Source of the DNA: Winogradskyella vincentii
Lineage (GTDB): Bacteria; Bacteroidota; Bacteroidia; Flavobacteriales; Flavobacteriaceae
Direction: 5' to 3'
Assembly (NCBI RefSeq): GCF_020166345.1
Contig: NZ_JAIUJS010000002.1
Span: forward strand, 434,001-498,000
DNA length: 64,000 bases
The notes beneath the pieces are model-generated. The model was not told the DNA's origin. It ran no database searches and saw only the letters and a list, made by a program, of their open reading frames with translations. Positions within the stretch are counted from its first letter, which is position 1; every line of letters starts with the position of its first letter. The translations under genes and the position numbers were made by a program. Of the stretch, positions 53,837 through 63,828 are shown one piece after another.

Positions 53837-54183
53837 TGAGTCTACCGAAAACATTTGATGATTTAATTGAAGAGGCTGAGGCATTAAAACTTTACAAGAA
53901 ATTAATTATTCAGCTCAATAAAGACTTACTGCTGGCCAATATAGATTTAGAGTTTAATATAGATACTTTGCCAACTAGTTTAAAGTTGTTATTACAAGAA
54001 ACGGTTTATCATCTCATACAAAACAAGTTTTCAGATTATTTAAATCTGCTATACCAAGTAGACGTTTCTGAGAATAAAATACGTCAACTAGATACTGAAG
54101 ATATCGTAAACCTATCTGAAAATGTTACTTTTTTAATTCTTCAAAGAGAATGGCAGAAAGTATGGTATAGAGCTAAAAGTTAG
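53836..54183 (+). CDS. Conserved-looking 115-residue protein coupled to polyprenyl synthase
   Basis: A small, helical, slightly acidic cytoplasmic protein without membrane segments or a recognised domain. Its ATG overlaps the stop of the polyprenyl synthetase gene, so translation is coupled, and its last 4 bp overlap the stop of the convergent cytochrome gene. The coupling suggests a link with the synthase, but no function can be assigned. It looks real by its frame use and overlap. Confidence 0.75.
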   Translation: MSLPKTFDDLIEEAEALKLYKKLIIQLNKDLLLANIDLEFNIDTLPTSLKLLLQETVYHLIQNKFSDYLNLLYQVDVSENKIRQLDTEDIVNLSENVTFLILQREWQKVWYRAKS

Positions 54184-54647
54184 AGAGTTCTAAAATATTC
54201 TAATATTGCTCTAGCTTCGTCCTTAGTTACATTTTGACTTACCATTGGAGAACCGTTGTATTCTGCTAAAAGATCTTTAGCCAATGGATCTTCTTTAACC
54301 ATTTTTTCTGGGTTTAATATCATATTCATTACCCATTCTGGTGATCTACGCTCTAAAATTCCTTTTGGAGCTGGCCCAATGAATTTTTTATCAACCATAT
54401 GGCAGGCAATACATAATTTGCCATATATTTCCTCGCCCGTTTTGGCTAATTCTTCATCAACTACTAACGGTAAATCTACAGATGTTATGGATCCAACACC
54501 TTTGTTTTTTAAATCTACACGTTCTGACGCTGGCACCTTCTCGGCATCAGATTTGCCATAACTAACACCATTAGATTTTTTACTTTCACCGCAAGTAAAA
54601 ACAGTTATACAAACGGAAAGACATAAGAGTTTAATTAAATACTTCAT
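54180..54647 (-). CDS. Monohaem c-type cytochrome lipoprotein, likely nos-associated
   Basis: A 155-residue lipoprotein (lipobox VFTC, Cys19) with one haem c site CIACH (C79, C82, H83) and a probable axial Met135 (GSPMVS). A low-complexity charged linker lies between lipid anchor and haem domain. Its place next to the nitrous oxide reductase locus suggests that it passes electrons to NosZ, as clade II systems use small c cytochromes. A terminator upstream separates it from the TonB-receptor gene, so it has its own promoter. Direct evidence of the electron route is lacking. Confidence 0.85.
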   Translation of the reverse strand: MKYLIKLLCLSVCITVFTCGESKKSNGVSYGKSDAEKVPASERVDLKNKGVGSITSVDLPLVVDEELAKTGEEIYGKLCIACHMVDKKFIGPAPKGILERRSPEWVMNMILNPEKMVKEDPLAKDLLAEYNGSPMVSQNVTKDEARAILEYFRTL

Positions 54648-54765: not shown

Positions 54766-57033
54766 TTAAAACATAAAGTTTACTGATACATACGCATTTC
54801 TGCCAGGTGCATAAATTGCGAGATTTTCACCTCTAACAGATCTGCTTAAATGTTCATAGTAGTATTCATCAAATAGATTATTAATTCCGCCCGTTAGTTT
54901 GCCAGATTTTGAAAATTGATAGGCAACTCTAAAATCTAACTTTGAAAACGCAGGTGTCTCCGTTTCACCAAATTCTGATGAAATACGAGATTGCTCTAAA
55001 ACGTATCTAAAAGTTAGTTCAGGGAATAATTTTCCTTTGAGGTAATTTCCCGATAGCGTATATCTAAAATCTAAAGGTGCAATTTCAGGTAAGGGCTCAT
55101 CGCGCTCTAGGTCTTCAGCATAGGTGTAGGCTATTCCTGCTTGGTGTTCAAGATTTTCAAGTATTTCTTGTTGCCAATTAATTTCAAAACCTGTTTTAAA
55201 GGCATCTTTTATATTAGTAAATCGTCTCACACCAGGACTCATAGGTAATCTTGGTGTAAGATTTGGGTCAATGTAAGATGAAATAAAATCCTGAAGGTAT
55301 CCTGCAAACAAATCTACATTTACAATTGTAGTTTTATCTTGCCAATTGAATGTAATATCTATCTGATTATTTATCTCTGGATTTAGTTGTGGATTACCAA
55401 CTAGTTCATATGGATCTTGTCCGACTGGAAAATAATTTATATACCTTTCTGTAAGACCTCCACTGCGTTGTGCTCTTGCAACCCATAGTCCTAACGAAGC
55501 ATTTGTACCTAATTTTCTTGTTAAGCCAAAACTAAAGCTAGGGTTAAATTGTGTAATATTGGTAGCGTCATTAACCTCTTCAAATTCTTCGGCAAGATTA
55601 TTTATTTCTCCACTGTTAAATTCTAATCTAGAAGATAATACGGCCTTTGTTTTATTGATGTTGAACTGATATTCTGCAAAAAGACTTGTTTTTGTAATAT
55701 TACTATTTAACCACACATTATCACTAATAGTGTTTCCAGCATTTGGACCCATAAGAAACTCTCGATCTCTAGTTCCGTCTGCACCTTCTTTTCTAAAATC
55801 TGCTCCAGCAAATAGTTTTGAATTGTCAAAATACCAAATACCTTCAGATCTCCCTCCAAAGTTATAAGTTGTTGCATTTGTTTGAGCGTTAAGCATTCTA
55901 GGATCTAGTGGTTTCATTAAATTATCCATTAAATGATCAACAAAGGATGCAAAAGCGGTGGTATTCAAAGAGCTTAAATGTTTTTTATTAAAAGATACAT
56001 CATGTCTTAAATTAAATAGCCACGTATCATCCTTTCTTAAATCCATTGGTAAGGCTGCAAAATCAGCATCTCTAGCAATATTATAAACAGCTGATAATCT
56101 TAGTTGCTGAGTTTCGTTTAATTTAATTCCTAAATTAGTTCCGAAACTTCCTCGATTAAAACCTGCGACAACCTCATCATCGTTGCCTGTTGTGTAATTC
56201 TCACCTTGAGACCAAGAACTAAAAAATGTGACATCATGTGTTTTGCCACTAAGGCCAACAAGCCCTTCATTTCTTAAGATATTTCCATTTCCGTCATAAC
56301 CACTAGACACTCTTCCATAGATGTCATTTTTTTCTGTGAAATTTAATGGTTCAGGAATAAAATTTATTGTAGCGCCAAATCCAGTGCCATATCTTAGAAC
56401 ATATGGTCCTTTGAGAATTTCTATGCGATTTAACATATTTGGAGCCATTTGACTTGTCGGTGGATCCATTCGGTTAGGACAGGCCGCAGTTGCACTTTGA
56501 GCACCATTTAGTACTACATTAAGCTGATCATATTTATAGCCTCTAAAAACAGGGTCAAATCCATAAGCACCTCCTTTTACGATACTATTTATTGATGGAT
56601 TTTTGTTGAGTATAGCAGCGGCATCATGTGCTAGTTGATCCCTGTATTCTAATTCTACATCCTCACTTGGGTTTTTCTTAGATCTTAAAGAAATTACAGT
56701 AACTGGTTGAAGATTTATAGATACAGGCGCCTTGTAAATTGTTTTTTCAGATTTTAGATTAAGTACTTCGGCATCATCCAACGACCATTCACTATAGTTG
56801 ATATGAGACAGGTATAAGGTTTGCCCTTTTTCATAATTAAAACTGAAATTACCTTTGTTGTCAGTTATACCATTCTGGTTACTATATTTAAAAGTTGCAC
56901 CTACAATTGGCGATGAATTTGTAATGTCAAGAAGTTGTACATCTATTTTATTTTGTGCATAAGTTGCAATAGATAAAAATACAAGCATAAGGGTCATGAC
57001 AGCCCTATTAAGTAATGTGTTTTGTAAATACAT
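54766..57033 (-). CDS. TonB-dependent receptor, OprC/NosA-like copper importer
   Basis: An outer-membrane TonB-dependent receptor of 755 residues. After a signal peptide (to about 26) comes a carboxypeptidase-regulatory-like domain (about 28-110), then a plug domain (about 125-230) and a 22-strand barrel ending on an aromatic strand (NAYVSVNFMF). The plug contains C185-P-N-R-M189 (ACPNRMDPPTS), and the barrel contains H367-L-M369 (FVDHLMDN). This is the CxxxM...HxM copper-binding set described for OprC of Pseudomonas aeruginosa, a relative of NosA needed for NosZ copper in P. stutzeri. Location behind nosY supports the same role. It is the last gene of the presumed operon. Confidence 0.9.
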   Translation of the reverse strand: MYLQNTLLNRAVMTLMLVFLSIATYAQNKIDVQLLDITNSSPIVGATFKYSNQNGITDNKGNFSFNYEKGQTLYLSHINYSEWSLDDAEVLNLKSEKTIYKAPVSINLQPVTVISLRSKKNPSEDVELEYRDQLAHDAAAILNKNPSINSIVKGGAYGFDPVFRGYKYDQLNVVLNGAQSATAACPNRMDPPTSQMAPNMLNRIEILKGPYVLRYGTGFGATINFIPEPLNFTEKNDIYGRVSSGYDGNGNILRNEGLVGLSGKTHDVTFFSSWSQGENYTTGNDDEVVAGFNRGSFGTNLGIKLNETQQLRLSAVYNIARDADFAALPMDLRKDDTWLFNLRHDVSFNKKHLSSLNTTAFASFVDHLMDNLMKPLDPRMLNAQTNATTYNFGGRSEGIWYFDNSKLFAGADFRKEGADGTRDREFLMGPNAGNTISDNVWLNSNITKTSLFAEYQFNINKTKAVLSSRLEFNSGEINNLAEEFEEVNDATNITQFNPSFSFGLTRKLGTNASLGLWVARAQRSGGLTERYINYFPVGQDPYELVGNPQLNPEINNQIDITFNWQDKTTIVNVDLFAGYLQDFISSYIDPNLTPRLPMSPGVRRFTNIKDAFKTGFEINWQQEILENLEHQAGIAYTYAEDLERDEPLPEIAPLDFRYTLSGNYLKGKLFPELTFRYVLEQSRISSEFGETETPAFSKLDFRVAYQFSKSGKLTGGINNLFDEYYYEHLSRSVRGENLAIYAPGRNAYVSVNFMF

Positions 57034-57114
57034 AACTACTTTTTTGTTGATTTATGTCATAAGTGAAAGCTCCGAATTGAATTAAAATTTCTATTCGGTT
57101 ATTAAAAAGATATG

Positions 57115-57513
57115 TTATGCAAATGCCTTAGGAGGATGTAAAATTTTACGAATAATTTCAAGTGGTATTACGTCTTGATGATGAATGAATTTATTCTTTG
57201 TGTAATCAATGAAGTAATTTTTTGAAATTATGGAAGATTCTTTTTTGGTAAGAATAAAATATGATAATTCTATTCTGTTTTTAATTTGTAAAGGTTGGTT
57301 TTCCCCTTGGTTATTTGCTTCTTTTAATTGTTTGTTTAATTGGCATTTACCGTTACAACCTTTTTGTTCTTCTTTTTGAATACAAAGAGTTTTGGCAATT
57401 AAGTCTTGATTGATCACAAAATCAGTAACAACAACAATAGTATTGATGTTATTGGCCATTAAAACTAAAGTTAATATTAGCGCTGTGGCTTTATGAATAA
57501 ACCGGATTAGCAT
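57115..57513 (-). CDS. Small CNGKC-motif membrane protein of the copper module
   Basis: A 132-residue protein with one N-terminal hydrophobic helix (about 10-33). A periplasmic segment follows with three cysteines, C44 and the pair in CNGKC (C53, C57), leading into LNKQLKEA. It ends on HPPKAFA, with a His pair (H111, H112) shortly before. The family appears to recur beside Bacteroidota TonB receptors, but no function has been assigned to my knowledge. The Cys/His layout could hold Cu(I) or form a disulphide. It lies 81 bp before the TonB receptor and just after an FNR-like dyad. Confidence 0.75.
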   Translation of the reverse strand: MLIRFIHKATALILTLVLMANNINTIVVVTDFVINQDLIAKTLCIQKEEQKGCNGKCQLNKQLKEANNQGENQPLQIKNRIELSYFILTKKESSIISKNYFIDYTKNKFIHHQDVIPLEIIRKILHPPKAFA

Positions 57514-57547: not shown

Positions 57548-57561
57548 CTGATATTTATCAG
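57548..57561. promoter_or_regulatory. FNR/CRP-like dyad upstream of the CNGKC gene
   Basis: CTGATA-TT-TATCAG is a perfect palindrome containing TGAT-N4-ATCA, the core of FNR/CRP-family sites. It lies 35 bp before the CNGKC ATG, in the 53-bp gap after the lipoprotein gene. Such a site would allow anaerobic or nitrogen-oxide control of the copper genes, but an 8-bp core can also arise by chance in AT-rich DNA. Confidence 0.4.
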
Positions 57562-57566
57562 TTGAT

Positions 57567-57986
57567 TTAAGTTTTGAAGTAATTAAAATAAGTTGATACT
57601 AGTGACTTCAGGTGGTTGATTTTAGAATTAAGATTATCAGTGTTTTCAGTATCCTTTATTTCGGATATTTTTTCTAGAATAGGGACTAATACAATATGTA
57701 ATTGATCATGTGCTATGCCTTTCATATCACAACTCTTAATAATATAGCTGGTTTCATTAGAAAGTGCATTACCTAATACTTTACCATCAAGTTTTGGGAT
57801 ATTGTTAAGTATAGAATCTATCCGAGTCATACCTACATGTGTCTCTTCATTTGCAACCCATTTTTCGTTGTTGTTGAGTGTTAATCCTTCTAATTTTATT
57901 GGTTGCGAATCAGCACTTTTACTTTCGTTTATACAACCAAGAGCAAAGATGAGAAAAAGGGCAAATAATAAATGTTTTGAATTCAT
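57567..57986 (-). CDS. Putative metal-binding lipoprotein next to nosY
   Basis: A 139-residue lipoprotein (lipobox FALGC, Cys18). The mature part is helical and shows possible metal ligands in two places: KWVANEETHVGM (H50, M53) and SCDMKGIAHDQLH (C86, M88, H93, H97). I recall the motif pattern (K-W...H..M, then C.M.G.AHD.LH) from other flavobacterial lipoproteins of unknown function. Position 30 bp after nosY suggests a periplasmic copper carrier or sensor; this is inference. No enzymatic motif is visible. Confidence 0.75.
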   Translation of the reverse strand: MNSKHLLFALFLIFALGCINESKSADSQPIKLEGLTLNNNEKWVANEETHVGMTRIDSILNNIPKLDGKVLGNALSNETSYIIKSCDMKGIAHDQLHIVLVPILEKISEIKDTENTDNLNSKINHLKSLVSTYFNYFKT

Positions 57987-58016: not shown

Positions 58017-58808
58017 TTAAAAATCCTTTTTCCTAGACTTAAATACTATTCTAAAAACTGGCAATATTACCCAAACCAATAACATTACAAATGAAATAAT
58101 GAGCCCGAAACTTGTACCAAAGAACTGTTTAAAAACGGCTCCGGTATATCCTAATAAGGCAGATATATCTAGCTTTAATAGTATAAGTGTTCTTGATAAA
58201 TCAATTGGGTTGAGCATAGTGCCAATGAGTGACACCTTATCTAAAGGATAATCTTCAAAAATTATAAGTGACATTAAAAAAAGGCCATCATAGATAATGG
58301 CTAGAAATAACCACATGAGGATAGCATAACCAAAACCTTTAATTTTATTTTCATGGGATAGTGCTATATTAAATGCCAATGCACTAAAAATAAAGGTTAA
58401 GAATACACCAACTATTAACAATAATGAGAAGTCCCAAATAGCACTAGACTTAAATAATCCATATGCAATAAATGGTAGGCCTAAACCGATAATTAAACTC
58501 ATGGATAAGGAAATTGCAACTCCTAGATATTGCCCTAGAAATATTGAGGAACGTTTTAAGGGTTGTGCTAACAAAAGCTCCGTAAACTCTTTGGAATTAT
58601 AATAGTACATAACCCCAAATATGGTGCCTATTAATGGTACTAAAACGATAATAACATTCATTAAGGTTATGACGGCTTTTGATAAGTCGTTATTAAGAAA
58701 TAGAAGTACTATACCTAAGAGTAAATAGAAGCCTAAGTATACATAGCTCCAGCTACTGCGCATTAAGTCGTAAAAACTATATTTTAAAATTTTAAGCATG
58801 GTTTTCAA
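58017..58808 (-). CDS. nosY: NosY-type ABC transporter permease
   Basis: Membrane subunit of the NosFY ABC transporter, needed with NosD to build the copper-sulfide CuZ centre of NosZ. The 263 residues show about six hydrophobic helices and the ABC-2-type segment YYNSKEFTELLLAQPLKRSSIFLGQYLG. Its start overlaps the end of nosF by 17 bp. The assignment rests on this nos context. Confidence 0.9.
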   Translation of the reverse strand: MKTMLKILKYSFYDLMRSSWSYVYLGFYLLLGIVLLFLNNDLSKAVITLMNVIIVLVPLIGTIFGVMYYYNSKEFTELLLAQPLKRSSIFLGQYLGVAISLSMSLIIGLGLPFIAYGLFKSSAIWDFSLLLIVGVFLTFIFSALAFNIALSHENKIKGFGYAILMWLFLAIIYDGLFLMSLIIFEDYPLDKVSLIGTMLNPIDLSRTLILLKLDISALLGYTGAVFKQFFGTSFGLIISFVMLLVWVILPVFRIVFKSRKKDF

Positions 58809-59499
58809 TTAATATGTTAGCAATGGCATGCTCAAAATCTTTTTCTTTTGTTTTTTCTTGGAGAGCTTTGATGCTTCCTCTGAAATAAATTTTCCCTTCT
58901 AGTATAAATACAATTTCATCCGCCACTTCTTCAACAAAACTCATAATATGAGAAGTTATTAAAATGGCTTTTCCTTTTTGTTTTTCGGTAGCAATAAGTT
59001 CCTTTAAGCGTATTAATGAGATCGGGTCTAAACCTGTTGTAGGCTCATCTAAAATTATAATTGGACTGTCAAACATAAAGGTGAGAACTATATTTACTTT
59101 TTGTTTAGTGCCACCTGATAATGTTCCTAGTTTTTTGTTTAAAAATGGTTCAAGTTTAAAGGTTTCAATTAGCATTTGATCTTTATCCGTTGCACCCCTT
59201 AGATCCTTAATCATTTTTATTAACTCAATAACTTTTAGGTTGCTTGGGAAATTAGCAATTTGAGGCATGTAATCTATTTTATGCCTGTAATCGGAGCTCT
59301 TTTTTATGTCAGAATCAAATACTTTGATGCTTCCTTTGTTAGGGATTACCATACCTAAGATGGATTTGATAATTGTGGTCTTACCAGAGCCGTTTGGCCC
59401 TAGTACGGCGAATATCCCACCTTTATTAATATTGAGGTCTACACCATTTAGAACATTGTTTTTGCTAAACGACTTATGTAAATCTTTAATCTCTACCAT
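58792..59499 (-). CDS. nosF: NosF-type ABC transporter ATPase
   Basis: ATPase of the NosDFY complex, 235 residues. Walker A is GPNGSGKTT (34-42), the signature is LSGGTKQK, and Walker B is IIILDEPTTGLDP, followed by the switch His in LITSH. The substrate is thought to be a sulfur species for CuZ assembly. It overlaps nosD by 7 bp and nosY by 17 bp. Confidence 0.95.
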   Translation of the reverse strand: MVEIKDLHKSFSKNNVLNGVDLNINKGGIFAVLGPNGSGKTTIIKSILGMVIPNKGSIKVFDSDIKKSSDYRHKIDYMPQIANFPSNLKVIELIKMIKDLRGATDKDQMLIETFKLEPFLNKKLGTLSGGTKQKVNIVLTFMFDSPIIILDEPTTGLDPISLIRLKELIATEKQKGKAILITSHIMSFVEEVADEIVFILEGKIYFRGSIKALQEKTKEKDFEHAIANILIENHA

Positions 59500-60734
59500 T
59501 CTACTTGGGTCATTAACGGTTGGTTGTCTATAAGGTTTTCTGGTGTAAAGACAGGGGAAACTTTTTCAGAAAAATCAATAATGTCTATAAATAAACTCCT
59601 TAATAGAACAATACTTTCAGGTGTGCGATTTACCAAGTATGAAAACAATTTCACGGGTCTATATGGTGTGTCGCCAATATTATCTTTGTTCAAATCATAA
59701 CCTGTATAGTTGCTCCAATAATTATTTTCAAATTTGTTGCTATTTAATTTACCAGAATATGATAAATCGAAGGAATTGTAAAGAAAGTTATTTCTGGAGT
59801 ATATATTATCATAACATGCACCATGAACTTTTATGGCATATCCATTGTTTTTAAAGGTATTTTCAAAATAAGTGATACGGTTTGTGCCGTCTGCATTAAT
59901 TCCTATCGTATTATCTTCAAAAACGTTGTGCTTTAATTCGGCATCGTTGATTTCTTTGAGAAGAATCCCATATGAAGCAGTTCCCCAGTTTCTCTTAAAT
60001 GTATTATTAAACATCTTGATACGTTTAGAAAACATTACGGCTACACCAGCACCATTAGCCTCAAAAATGTTCTTCTCATAAGTATTGTCATTAGAAAACA
60101 TAAAATGTAGACCATAGCGCATGTTTTCTGTAGAGTAGTTGTTGGCTATATAACTACTATTACCAAATTCTAAATAGATACCATCACGCATTCTGCGAAC
60201 ATCATTGTTAGTGATTTTTACATTTTCGCAGTGCCATAAATGAATGGCATTACCCGAATCTGCTTCAGCTTTTCCTTGACCAGAAATAATATTGTTTTTA
60301 ACTATTCCATCTTTAGATTTTTGAATTAAAAACCCAAAAAAGGCATTATCTACTGTGATATTTTCGATAACAAAGTCGTAAGATTTAAACAACAAAATAC
60401 CAGCATATTCTTTAGTGTAACTTATTTTGATATTCTTAATTGTAAGATTTTTTATTACGATGTCAGTAGCTTCTACAGAAAAGCCATAGCCATTGTTTTC
60501 AGTATCGATTATCGTTCCATTTTCACCAGAAATATGAAGTGATTTTTTATATATGACAATGTTAGACTCATTGTAAATACCTGCTTTAATAAAAATCTTA
60601 TCTCCACTTTCAGAGCTATCTACTGCAGTTTGAATAGAGTTAAAATCACAACCTGCTTCACATACTGTTTTGGTTTCTGCAGTTGCGAAGTAGGTAGTGA
60701 TGATAAATATTATAATACTAAAACGTATTTTCAT
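59493..60734 (-). CDS. nosD: Nitrous oxide reductase maturation protein NosD
   Basis: Periplasmic right-handed beta-helix protein of 413 residues, the partner of the NosFY transporter in CuZ assembly. A signal peptide ends near residue 18 (FATAE). The following PbH1-type repeats are clear (repeated N..I..N/D..I pattern, for example IVIKNLTIKNIKI and VKITNNDVRRMRDGIYLEFGNSSYIANNY). The C-terminal GYDLNKDNIGDTPYRP segment is typical of NosD. It lies 9 bp after nosL and overlaps nosF. Confidence 0.95.
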   Translation of the reverse strand: MKIRFSIIIFIITTYFATAETKTVCEAGCDFNSIQTAVDSSESGDKIFIKAGIYNESNIVIYKKSLHISGENGTIIDTENNGYGFSVEATDIVIKNLTIKNIKISYTKEYAGILLFKSYDFVIENITVDNAFFGFLIQKSKDGIVKNNIISGQGKAEADSGNAIHLWHCENVKITNNDVRRMRDGIYLEFGNSSYIANNYSTENMRYGLHFMFSNDNTYEKNIFEANGAGVAVMFSKRIKMFNNTFKRNWGTASYGILLKEINDAELKHNVFEDNTIGINADGTNRITYFENTFKNNGYAIKVHGACYDNIYSRNNFLYNSFDLSYSGKLNSNKFENNYWSNYTGYDLNKDNIGDTPYRPVKLFSYLVNRTPESIVLLRSLFIDIIDFSEKVSPVFTPENLIDNQPLMTQVEW

Positions 60735-60743
60735 GGTACTCCG

Positions 60744-61172
60744 CTAATTGAGTTTTTTAAAAATACCATCCCAGTCGTAGAATTCAGCGGATGAACTATT
60801 TATTAGCTCCTTAACGTTACTTTTTGTTGCAAAACCAGTCAAGTTTGCACCCATAGGACTTGAAATTTCCTCACATATAACATAGTTAGCTGTTTTGGCA
60901 TTTGTCATAGTACCAGGAGCATTATAATCTGTAATTAGGAGATTGCTTTTGGATATTAAATTTTGCTTGTCGTCTAAAAAACGAATCATACATTCAATAG
61001 CGTCAAACTTGTACTGTTTACCTTTATCCGTCACCATTTGAGCAGCATGTGTTTTAGTAACAATTGTCATTTGGCAGTAATTACACATATCACTACCGTA
61101 ATTTATAGGTTGTGGATTAGTACTACAACTGAGAATTACAAGAAATAATATAATAAGCCACAAACGCTTCAT
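60744..61172 (-). CDS. nosL: NosL copper chaperone lipoprotein
   Basis: An outer-membrane/periplasmic lipoprotein of 142 residues (lipobox VILSC, Cys16) that delivers Cu(I) to NosZ. The copper-site region is SDMCNYCQMTI with M29, C30, C33 and M35, matching the NosL Cys/Met motif. The typical FDAIECMIRFL segment follows. It overlaps the preceding NosB-like gene by 4 bp (ATGA). Confidence 0.93.
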   Translation of the reverse strand: MKRLWLIILFLVILSCSTNPQPINYGSDMCNYCQMTIVTKTHAAQMVTDKGKQYKFDAIECMIRFLDDKQNLISKSNLLITDYNAPGTMTNAKTANYVICEEISSPMGANLTGFATKSNVKELINSSSAEFYDWDGIFKKLN

Positions 61173-61786
61173 GCCTGATTAGTTTTTCTTTTTTTATTGC
61201 CTACAATATAAGCTATAAATGTTAAGAACATACCAAATCCCATCATATAGGCACCTGTATGTGGATACGAGTGGGCGACAAAATTTAAGATGTGCTTAGT
61301 GCCAAACAATGGTGGTTTATAACTCAAAGGATTACCATCTGCGTCAGTCATTTTCATTATCGCTTTAGGATCGAGGTTTGTACCATAATCTACCATCCAG
61401 GCATTAAAATCGTACATACCTAAAATACCTAAAACACACATTATTATTAACCAAGTTAAAAACCAGTTTGGTGATATACCTTTGAACAAACCTAATAAGC
61501 CAATAAAAATTCCTAAGAGCGCCATTCCTCCAACTACTTTTGGAAATACGCTAAACTCCCACATTTCTTCTGGTTTTGGTAATTTCCGCATACCAATGTA
61601 ATGGTTAAGTCCATCGATATTTTGTAAATCGTGTTTTTCTTTTCCTTGAAGACCATCAAGATGGATATTCATTCCTATACCACTTGGATATTGAGGTGCT
61701 TCAAGACTAATACTCCATAATGGGAATATAAATAAACCCAATAGAAGTGCTGAGCCAACAATCATAATAATACTTGCTGATTTCAT
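61169..61786 (-). CDS. NosB-like nos-cluster membrane protein
   Basis: A 205-residue protein with about four hydrophobic helices (near 5-27, 82-101, 108-125 and 178-198). It also has a Met/His-rich periplasmic region (GIGMNIHLDGLQGKEKHDLQ and HYIGMRKL). It sits between nosZ and nosL, the position of the polytopic NosB protein found only in clade II nos clusters, whose function is unknown. Similarity at sequence level cannot be judged here. The Met/His content fits a role near copper. It is coupled to nosL by a 4-bp overlap. Confidence 0.8.
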   Translation of the reverse strand: MKSASIIMIVGSALLLGLFIFPLWSISLEAPQYPSGIGMNIHLDGLQGKEKHDLQNIDGLNHYIGMRKLPKPEEMWEFSVFPKVVGGMALLGIFIGLLGLFKGISPNWFLTWLIIMCVLGILGMYDFNAWMVDYGTNLDPKAIMKMTDADGNPLSYKPPLFGTKHILNFVAHSYPHTGAYMMGFGMFLTFIAYIVGNKKRKTNQA

Positions 61787-61875
61787 TTTATTGTATTTTA
61801 AAAGATAAAAAGGGCGAGCTTGTCACTCGCCCTATGAGTTAAATAACATCTAAACACTAAAACTATTTAACCCTT

Positions 61876-63828
61876 TTATTCATCTAACGTATATTTTAGG
61901 GGAACATTAGAATTTTTCCCAGATACTCGTACATATCCTTGCATCTCTTGGTGTAGTGCAGAACAGAAATCCGTACAATAGAATGGCCATACTCCTTCAC
62001 GTTTTGGTTCCCAAACTATAGATTTGGTTTGTCCTGGCATCACTAAAATTTCGGATGTATTGGCGCCAATTATTGAGAATCCATGAGGTACATCAAAATC
62101 TTGCTCTAGGTTAGTAATATGGAAGTAAACTTTATCACCGACTTTGATTCCTTCAATATTATCAGGTGCAAAGTGGCTTCTAATGGTTGTCATATTAATA
62201 TGAACCTCGTTTCCATTTCGAGTAACTTTAGCTTCTGCTTCACTCTTAGCTGCATATGGATGTTCATTTTCAGAAAGCTCATAATATTTTTTACTCTTAT
62301 CCTTAATAACATCTGCGCGTATACCTGCTGCATAGTGAGGTTCACCATGAGTTGGGAAATCAGATAATAATTCCATCTTATCTCCTGAGATATCATACAA
62401 TTGTGCAGAGTGCTCTAGTTCTGGACCAGTTGGTAAATAACGGTCTTTAGTTATTTTGTTCATAGCCACTAAGTACTTGCCAAATGGCTTACGAGAGTTA
62501 CCACCTGGTATCATTAGGTGACCAACTGAATAAAACGTTGGTTGTCTGTCTAATACTTCAAAAGTTTCTAAACTCCACTTAACAACTTCAGAAGAAATAA
62601 AGAATGTAGTATATGCATTACCCTGGCCATCAAACTCAGTATGTAGAGGTCCTAAACCAGGTTGAGTTACGACACCTGCAAGCGTATTTTCATAAGACAA
62701 TACTGGGATACCGTAAGAATCATCCACAAAATCTTTGTTTTCAATAGCTGTTATCATTTTATCAAAATCATAAACACTTAAATCTGTAGATAATTTACCG
62801 CTACCAATAATAAATTGACCTGAAGGATCAACATCACAGCCATGAGGCGACTTAGGTATCGGGATATAAAAAACTGCACCTTCAACTTCTCTCGGATCTA
62901 CCATAGTGACACCTTCTTTCATGGTAGAAGTAGCCATATGTGTTTTATCATCATATACATTATGAGCATAAGTTCCAGGTGCTTTTTTACCACCACCGTT
63001 TTTAACGTAGTCAACAATTTTTTTCCAGTTTACTGCAGCAACATAATCTTTGTCATTTTGTGATGCATTAACTTCCATCAAAGTGTTTGCTTCTTCGGTA
63101 TTATAACTTGTAAAGAAGAACCAACCATGAGATTTATTTCTGCCAGGATGTGCTAAGTCATAATTGAAACCTGGCATATTTAACTGAAACTCTAAGTTCA
63201 TTCTACCGTTTTCTGCTATACTAACAAAAGAAAGAGGTCCTTTAAATTCTCCTTTCATGTCACTAATTGGCATATCCCGTTGAGGATTTGGCACTGCGAA
63301 ACGTGTACCTGCTACAATGTATTCTGTGTTTTCAGTAACGAATGAAGAAGCGTGGTTACCAGCACTATTTGGTAACTCAATTATTTCCTCAGTTTCAAAT
63401 GTTGCTAAACTTACACGAGCAATACGTGGCGTGTTGTTTTCATTTATAAAAATCCAACGGCCATCCAATTCACCGTTTGTTTGCGAAATATCAGGATGGT
63501 GAGCGTCTCCCCAAGGCACAAAACCAAAAGATGTATTTAACATCGCTTTGGTTTCTTCAGAATAGCCATATCCTGAGGTTGGGAATTGCGAGAATACAGG
63601 AATTTCCTTAAGCATACGTCCACTAGGTAGACCAGCTACAGTAATATTACCACTATAACCTCCTGAGAAGAAAGCATAGTACTCATCATGTTCACCCGGC
63701 GCAACATAAACTTTTTCAGCCTTGCTCGAAGACATAGCGCCAGAATTACTATTGCTATTGTTATTACCACAATTTGTCATAAAGATAAGTGCAGCAATAC
63801 CCAATACATATTTACCTATTTTGTTCAT
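61876..63828 (-). CDS. nosZ: Nitrous oxide reductase, Sec-type clade II
   Basis: Reduces N2O to N2 in the periplasm. The 650 residues begin with a Sec signal without twin Arg, marking clade II. The signal ends at Cys20 (FMTNC) before a Gly/Asn/Ser linker, so the protein is probably lipid-anchored. CuZ histidines include H110/H111 (WGDAHHPDIS), H159 (SAGNHAS) and those in AHNVYDD, PKSPHGCD, GLGPLHTEF and LEHSAQLY. The CuA site is CTDFCSALHQEM (C618, C622, H626, M629) near the C-terminus. It is preceded by the fasciclin gene by 27 bp and followed by the NosB-like gene by 89 bp. Confidence 0.98.
   Translation of the reverse strand: MNKIGKYVLGIAALIFMTNCGNNNSNSNSGAMSSSKAEKVYVAPGEHDEYYAFFSGGYSGNITVAGLPSGRMLKEIPVFSQFPTSGYGYSEETKAMLNTSFGFVPWGDAHHPDISQTNGELDGRWIFINENNTPRIARVSLATFETEEIIELPNSAGNHASSFVTENTEYIVAGTRFAVPNPQRDMPISDMKGEFKGPLSFVSIAENGRMNLEFQLNMPGFNYDLAHPGRNKSHGWFFFTSYNTEEANTLMEVNASQNDKDYVAAVNWKKIVDYVKNGGGKKAPGTYAHNVYDDKTHMATSTMKEGVTMVDPREVEGAVFYIPIPKSPHGCDVDPSGQFIIGSGKLSTDLSVYDFDKMITAIENKDFVDDSYGIPVLSYENTLAGVVTQPGLGPLHTEFDGQGNAYTTFFISSEVVKWSLETFEVLDRQPTFYSVGHLMIPGGNSRKPFGKYLVAMNKITKDRYLPTGPELEHSAQLYDISGDKMELLSDFPTHGEPHYAAGIRADVIKDKSKKYYELSENEHPYAAKSEAEAKVTRNGNEVHINMTTIRSHFAPDNIEGIKVGDKVYFHITNLEQDFDVPHGFSIIGANTSEILVMPGQTKSIVWEPKREGVWPFYCTDFCSALHQEMQGYVRVSGKNSNVPLKYTLDE

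Follow-up and report, generated by a model that had tools for sequence, protein, structure and literature searches.

Nitrous oxide is consumed biologically by NosZ, a copper-dependent enzyme. Bacteroidota that reduce N2O with a clade II enzyme are widespread. Several outer-membrane copper receptors have been described elsewhere. OprC of Pseudomonas aeruginosa (structure 6fok) binds copper through residues C143, M147, H323 and M325 (PMC8610252). NosA of Pseudomonas stutzeri, also an OprC-type receptor, has been proposed as the copper supplier for NosZ, and its part in maturing that enzyme is disputed (PMC8610252, PMC7558416). CrtA and BfrG likewise tie TonB-dependent copper uptake to respiratory copper enzymes; unlike OprC, they import chelated Cu(II) and form a separate sequence cluster (PMC12914433).

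Within the Flavobacteriaceae, the nearest precedent is G2EC70 of Bizionia argentinensis, an OprC-like protein with the CxxxM and HxM motifs that is listed as a copper uptake protein (PMC11213822). Its gene lies near nosL, judging by locus tags BZARG_1494 and BZARG_1501; the accessible part of that source mentions no link to nos, no partner gene and no promoter. Two papers on Flavobacteriaceae nos clusters (PMC7477175, PMC9697520) do not mention a receptor, and nothing in the open-licence literature was found to describe OprC-like receptors within nos loci of the Bacteroidota. The original prediction had called such an importer not widely described. This stands for nos loci of the Bacteroidota, but an OprC-like receptor with the two motifs had already been noted in B. 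argentinensis.

The window (the whole 64,000-nucleotide stretch of Winogradskyella vincentii DNA analysed here) contains a nos locus on its minus strand, read in the following order:

61876-63828, minus strand: nosZ, Sec-dependent clade II nitrous-oxide reductase (TIGR04246, 910.5 bits; cut-off 625)
61811-61833, minus strand: terminator-like hairpin directly 3' of nosZ
61169-61786, minus strand: 205-aa membrane protein, found in nearly all nos clusters compared
60744-61172, minus strand: nosL, copper chaperone (PF05573, 48.3 bits)
59493-60734, minus strand: nosD (TIGR04247, 412.6 bits)
58792-59499, minus strand: nosF, ABC ATPase
58017-58808, minus strand: nosY-type ABC permease (ABC2_membrane_5, 23.1 bits, just below cut-off; named from its place and its relatives)
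57567-57986, minus strand: 139-aa lipoprotein with conserved C-x-M...HDQLH
57115-57513, minus strand: S132, 132 aa; its N-terminus is hydrophobic, and its three cysteines stand in LC-x8-CNGKC
54766-57033, minus strand: OprC-like TonB-dependent copper receptor, 755 aa, with the plug at about 131-218 and the barrel from about 237
54180-54647, minus strand: cytochrome c, co-directional and downstream of the receptor, and still beside the receptor in Winogradskyella alexanderae

With a TIGR04246 NosZ accompanied by nosL, nosD, nosF and nosY, this is a clade II (Sec-dependent) cluster. The plus strand of 54766-57033 is full of stops, and the receptor reading frame sits on the minus strand behind nosY, with the nos genes upstream on the same strand, as predicted. 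It had also been taken for the last gene of the run; the cytochrome c gene follows it on that strand. Whereas NosA is proteobacterial, this receptor belongs to a Bacteroidota clade II locus and is accompanied by S132.

The remaining genes of the locus merit brief comment. The 205-aa membrane protein is probably the NosB-like "hypothetical protein" of PMC9697520. The 139-aa lipoprotein, a possible copper carrier, belongs to a family (another member is L272:15143-15565) that matches no Pfam family; it follows nosY in some of the clusters that have a receptor, is less frequent elsewhere, and usually lies between nosY and S132. The strong hairpin at 61811-61833 separates nosZ from the 205-aa gene, and may set nosZ expression apart from that of the maturation genes. 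A single transcript from nosZ to the receptor is therefore not assured; this idea is weakened also by the Crp/Fnr-type site that the receptor and S132 have of their own and by their nos-free arrangement in W. alexanderae (both below). Upstream of nosZ and outside the window lie a cytochrome c gene, a fasciclin-domain lipoprotein gene between it and nosZ (L252:1860-2441; PF02469, 86.6 bits), and, just past the window end, a divergent Rrf2-family regulator gene (L252:3069-3497; PF02082, 93 bits), which has in common with the nos operon an intergenic region holding a Crp/Fnr-type dyad. Most Flavobacteriaceae nos clusters have genes of about 190 aa at the position of the fasciclin lipoprotein, and 143-aa genes occupy the Rrf2 position in most nos clusters examined.

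Four elements of the receptor bear on its likeness to OprC:

56731-56949, minus strand: N-terminal beta domain, residues 29-101 (a sub-threshold carboxypeptidase-regulatory-like score plus the structural model)
56467-56481, minus strand: C185-P-N-R-M189, the half of the putative copper site that the plug contributes (C143/M147 in OprC)
56044-56046, minus strand: M330, at the alignment position of Met286 in OprC's methionine track
55927-55935, minus strand: H367-L-M369, the half of the putative copper site that the barrel contributes (H323/M325 in OprC), on model strand 353-370

Both receptor domains (PF07715 and PF00593) score above the Pfam cut-off, and the best PDB match by phmmer is OprC (6fok, E 1.9e-35), at about 22% identity. 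In that alignment ACPNRMD falls on OprC ACPNRMD and DHLMDN on OprC DHIMDN, both without gaps. C185, in ACPNRMD within AACPNRMDPPTS, is the sole cysteine, and H367-L-M369, in FVDHLMDN, the sole HxM, so that the CxxxM and HxM patterns each match once in the whole protein. The predicted OprC ligand set is thus present, aligned on C143, M147, H323 and M325. The top NCBIfam model is the TonB-copper equivalog TIGR01778; the score of 221.6 bits misses its cut-off of 472.45, so the protein is filed as an OprC-like Bacteroidota relative and not as an equivalog of OprC or NosA. Its own genome encodes this one OprC-like receptor along with about 25 other plug-domain proteins, and its closest named relative is from W. 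alexanderae (80% identity).

Relatives were gathered with sequence patterns outside the ligand motif (KGGNYGFD and PVFRGFKY), which avoids circularity. C185, M189, D190, H367 and M369 are invariant in all 69 aligned receptors of the window type, and the four ligand positions read CMHM in 148 of 148 distinct OprC-like receptors, down to 20-25% identity. This invariance argues that the four residues are not there by chance. M330 is likewise identical in all 148, and the remaining methionine-track positions of OprC are mostly lost or variable. All relatives beside nosZ keep the four residues; a different ligand site in the nosZ-adjacent receptors of about 25% identity was considered and rejected on the same grounds.

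An AlphaFold2 model built from the 69-sequence alignment (mean pLDDT 83.8, pTM 0.78) has the plug-and-barrel fold, preceded by a beta domain of residues 29-101. In a Foldseek comparison with the PDB, OprC chains take every rank from 1 to 28 (TM-score by target 0.83-0.88), and haem and zinc receptors come next. Fold and ligand alignment both bear out the proposed kinship with OprC, and together they suggest that C185, M189, H367 and M369 would converge at one site. The receptor thus resembles OprC in fold, in the places of CxxxM and HxM, and in Met286; it differs in its low identity, its extra N-terminal domain and the absence of most methionine-track positions. That extra domain had been predicted to be carboxypeptidase-regulatory-like. 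A separate domain is indeed modelled there, but the family assignment falls short of the Pfam threshold (CarbopepD_reg_2, 16.2 bits; cut-off 32.2).

These data also bear on the substrate. It is hardly credible that the four residues are a functionless family signature in a receptor for haem, a siderophore or zinc: the haem model TIGR01785 and siderophore models do match weakly, but OprC is the best match in both sequence and structure, and even receptors of 20-25% identity keep every ligand. Import of complexed copper, bound to a peptide or other metallophore, or of another soft metal such as silver, in place of free copper ions is easier to imagine though still improbable. CrtA and MbnT are TonB-dependent transporters for chelated copper (PMC12914433), and the extracellular loops and most methionine-track positions of the present receptor are unlike those of OprC. 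Against this, the full OprC ligand set is invariant, and no metallophore biosynthesis genes are conspicuous among the neighbours, as far as these are annotated.

The receptor gene has a constant companion. All 30 receptors in the first test have S132 upstream, as do 18 of 19 further ones and those in nearly all named loci; it usually adjoins the receptor or is separated from it by a YtkA-like lipoprotein. Most members have a hydrophobic N-terminus and the cysteine pattern C-x(8-9)-C-x-G-x-C; no Pfam or NCBIfam family matches S132. OprC-like receptors on Pandoraea and Serratia plasmids likewise have a small-protein gene directly upstream, at the place of S132, which encodes a DUF2946 protein. 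Homology between the two is not detectable (an S132 profile scored at best -2.7 bits against two DUF2946 proteins), and the candidate assignment of S132 to that family was rejected; position is all they have in common.

How closely is this pair tied to N2O reduction? In a sample of 250 Flavobacteriaceae genomes, 121 had a match to nosZ (five partial and three divergent among them) and 98 an OprC-like receptor, for which the scores leave an empty gap between 567 and 164 bits. The receptor was present in 79 of the 121 nosZ genomes versus 19 of the 129 others (Fisher p 7e-17, with no phylogenetic correction), and 28 receptors lay within 12 kb of nosZ, where random placement predicts 0.8. The remaining 42 nosZ genomes yielded no OprC-like receptor, and a Cellulophaga metagenome-assembled genome and genome G190 had a receptor without a full nosZ. 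One congener (G158) has neither gene, which fits joint absence.

Comparison of the neighbourhoods of 100 loci revealed two receptor types. Most nos-linked receptors are of a 665-690-aa type (ACTDKMD, THxMDD), found behind nosY or upstream of nosZ and accompanied, in downstream clusters, by a YtkA-like lipoprotein of about 281 aa. They have the ligand set of the window receptor, its S132 partner, its promoter and its place behind nosY, but only 20-25% identity to it, and they lack the N-terminal domain. The window type is the rarer one in the Flavobacteriaceae sample. Among 80 named loci of this type, nearly all from the Bacteroidota, 11 have nos genes and 69 have none in the DNA examined (some contigs being short). 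The nos-linked hosts include Winogradskyella, Croceivirga, Flagellimonas and one genome each of the Microscillaceae, Chitinophagaceae and Saprospiraceae, so a search for the same receptor beside nosZ in other Bacteroidota, as originally proposed, does find it; in Croceivirga and Flagellimonas it lies upstream of nosZ, and one Microscillaceae cluster (L209) has both types behind nosY. About 70% of the nos clusters examined have no adjacent receptor. Linkage to nosZ is thus well above expectation, but the receptor is not specific to nos loci.

A FastTree phylogeny of 125 receptors places the 665-aa type in a separate clade (sampled from nos-linked members only) and nos-linked receptors in several clades, with eight changes between the linked and unlinked states; several branches are long and the deep joins uncertain. 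At least two receptor types joined nos clusters separately, and the link of the receptor to N2O reduction is real, not exclusive. Two clusters show signs of receptor loss: behind nosY, the receptor gene of G130 is broken by a stop (L085:5758-7758), and that of G121 is reduced to a 90-aa remnant (L131:11357-11629).

Winogradskyella alexanderae shows how freely the pair can be exchanged. Its S132 and window-type receptor genes have the same flanking genes as in the window, but the intervening nos block of about 7.9 kb is missing. Loss of nos was considered and rejected after a genome search located the cluster on another contig, with a NosZ 90% identical to that of the window and with the 139-aa-type lipoprotein, S132, the YtkA-like lipoprotein and a 665-aa receptor. 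Hence one or the other receptor type may close a nos cluster within a single genus, and the window-type cassette can also exist by itself.

Such arrangements also fit a general importer that serves the whole cell, including cbb3 oxidase and other cuproproteins, with NosZ independent of it and adjacency to nosZ due to common low-oxygen control or hitch-hiking. The receptor-S132 pair stands alone in most genomes and at the syntenic site in W. alexanderae; a separate family of copper receptors, CrtA, serves respiratory oxidases (PMC12914433); and knockout of nosA in one P. stutzeri strain caused no NosZ defect (PMC8610252). This reading nevertheless seems unlikely, given the strong co-occurrence with nosZ, the repeated adjacency involving different receptor types, and the retention by W. 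alexanderae of a second, nos-adjacent receptor besides the window-type one.

The last line of evidence comes from the promoters. The cassette in the window has a candidate regulatory site of its own:

57549-57560, minus strand: TGATAAATATCA, a Crp/Fnr-type dyad that is part of CTGATAAATATCAG, 47 nt upstream of the S132 start

The core of this dyad, TGAY-N4-RTCA, resembles a Crp/Fnr-family site. The FNR site itself is TTGAT-N4-ATCAA. The full promoter pattern combines the dyad with a box, TAnnTTTG, 23 nt beyond it. In the window the distance of 47 nt to S132 is the usual one, but the expected -7 box reads GAAATTAG and is degenerate. The dyad alone is common (four occurrences in the 64-kb window against 5.4 expected), so the weight of this site rests on its position and its relatives.

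Those relatives are numerous, with the caveat that the motif was picked by eye, post hoc, from Flavobacteriaceae sequences. Of 97 nos clusters, 85 have the dyad ahead of their first nos gene (1.4 expected from shuffled sequences), and it precedes S132 in 26 of 34 nos-linked cassettes (0.5 expected, shuffles) and 32 of 57 unlinked Flavobacteriaceae cassettes (0.8 expected, shuffles). In other families, 9 of 53 window-type cassettes have it, and so do 9% of the other genes in these loci that are 200 aa or longer. The exact 23-nt spacing to TAnnTTTG, counted afterwards and thus a more independent check, was found in 71 of the 85 nos operons, 17 of the 26 linked cassettes and 19 of the 32 unlinked ones. 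No clear signal came from a k-mer and dyad search of the regions upstream of all S132 genes, and scans for sigma-70-type promoters, which found fewer sites than in shuffles, were disregarded. A second dyad at 57048-57059, 15 nt before the receptor start, is probably due to chance; such a dyad was present at 2 of 30 receptors.

A search of the W. vincentii genome with one strict version of the whole promoter gave four occurrences, against none for the control: in the nos/Rrf2 intergenic region, and ahead of ccoNO (cbb3 oxidase), hemN and a gene for an outer-membrane protein. Close to ccoNO, at L283:3600-4277, sits a gene for an Fnr-like regulator (these gene names were read from translations by eye). 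The outer-membrane gene, an unexpected regulon member, encodes a 480-aa protein that looks OmpP1/FadL-like by eye; its promoter is at G000:C3:20752-20795 (L284). The set looks like a low-oxygen regulon of two copper enzymes and, across the family, the copper cassette. That ccoNO is preceded by the same promoter type also suits a general importer.

These results suggest a model in which low oxygen would lead a Crp/Fnr-type activator to turn on the nos operon and the receptor-S132 cassette from like promoters. Between plug and barrel, the C185/M189/H367/M369 site would catch copper, and TonB would drive its release into the periplasm, where NosL and NosDFY may hand it to NosZ; cbb3 oxidase probably would use it too. 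We consider it probable that the locus carries an OprC-like outer-membrane copper importer and its S132 cassette behind clade II nos genes, induced together with them at low oxygen and feeding NosZ and probably cbb3 oxidase. Counting against this reading are the many window-type loci without nos and nos clusters without an adjacent receptor; the nosZ genomes that lack a receptor, and the Cellulophaga assembly and G190, which have the receptor without a full nosZ; the degenerate -7 box; the largely lost methionine track; and the NosA knockout. A more tentative proposal, possible though somewhat less likely than not, is a whole low-oxygen copper-supply regulon of the Flavobacteriaceae, in which Crp/Fnr-type promoters would govern nos, cbb3 oxidase and the exchangeable receptor-S132 cassette. 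In that case S132 would handle or sense copper as a new kind of protein, filling in Bacteroidota the role that DUF2946 proteins have next to OprC in Proteobacteria.

What appears new is a recurrent, exchangeable receptor-S132 cassette in nos loci, with a promoter in common with nos. The cassette singles out an unstudied family of three-cysteine proteins, S132, as a likely part of bacterial copper uptake. The question from the 1980s of whether NosA feeds NosZ can be reopened in a group where receptors and nos clusters have joined several times. If nos loci do contain a dedicated importer under common control, N2O consumption in sediments and seawater would be subject to a specific and testable control, namely copper uptake at the cell surface.
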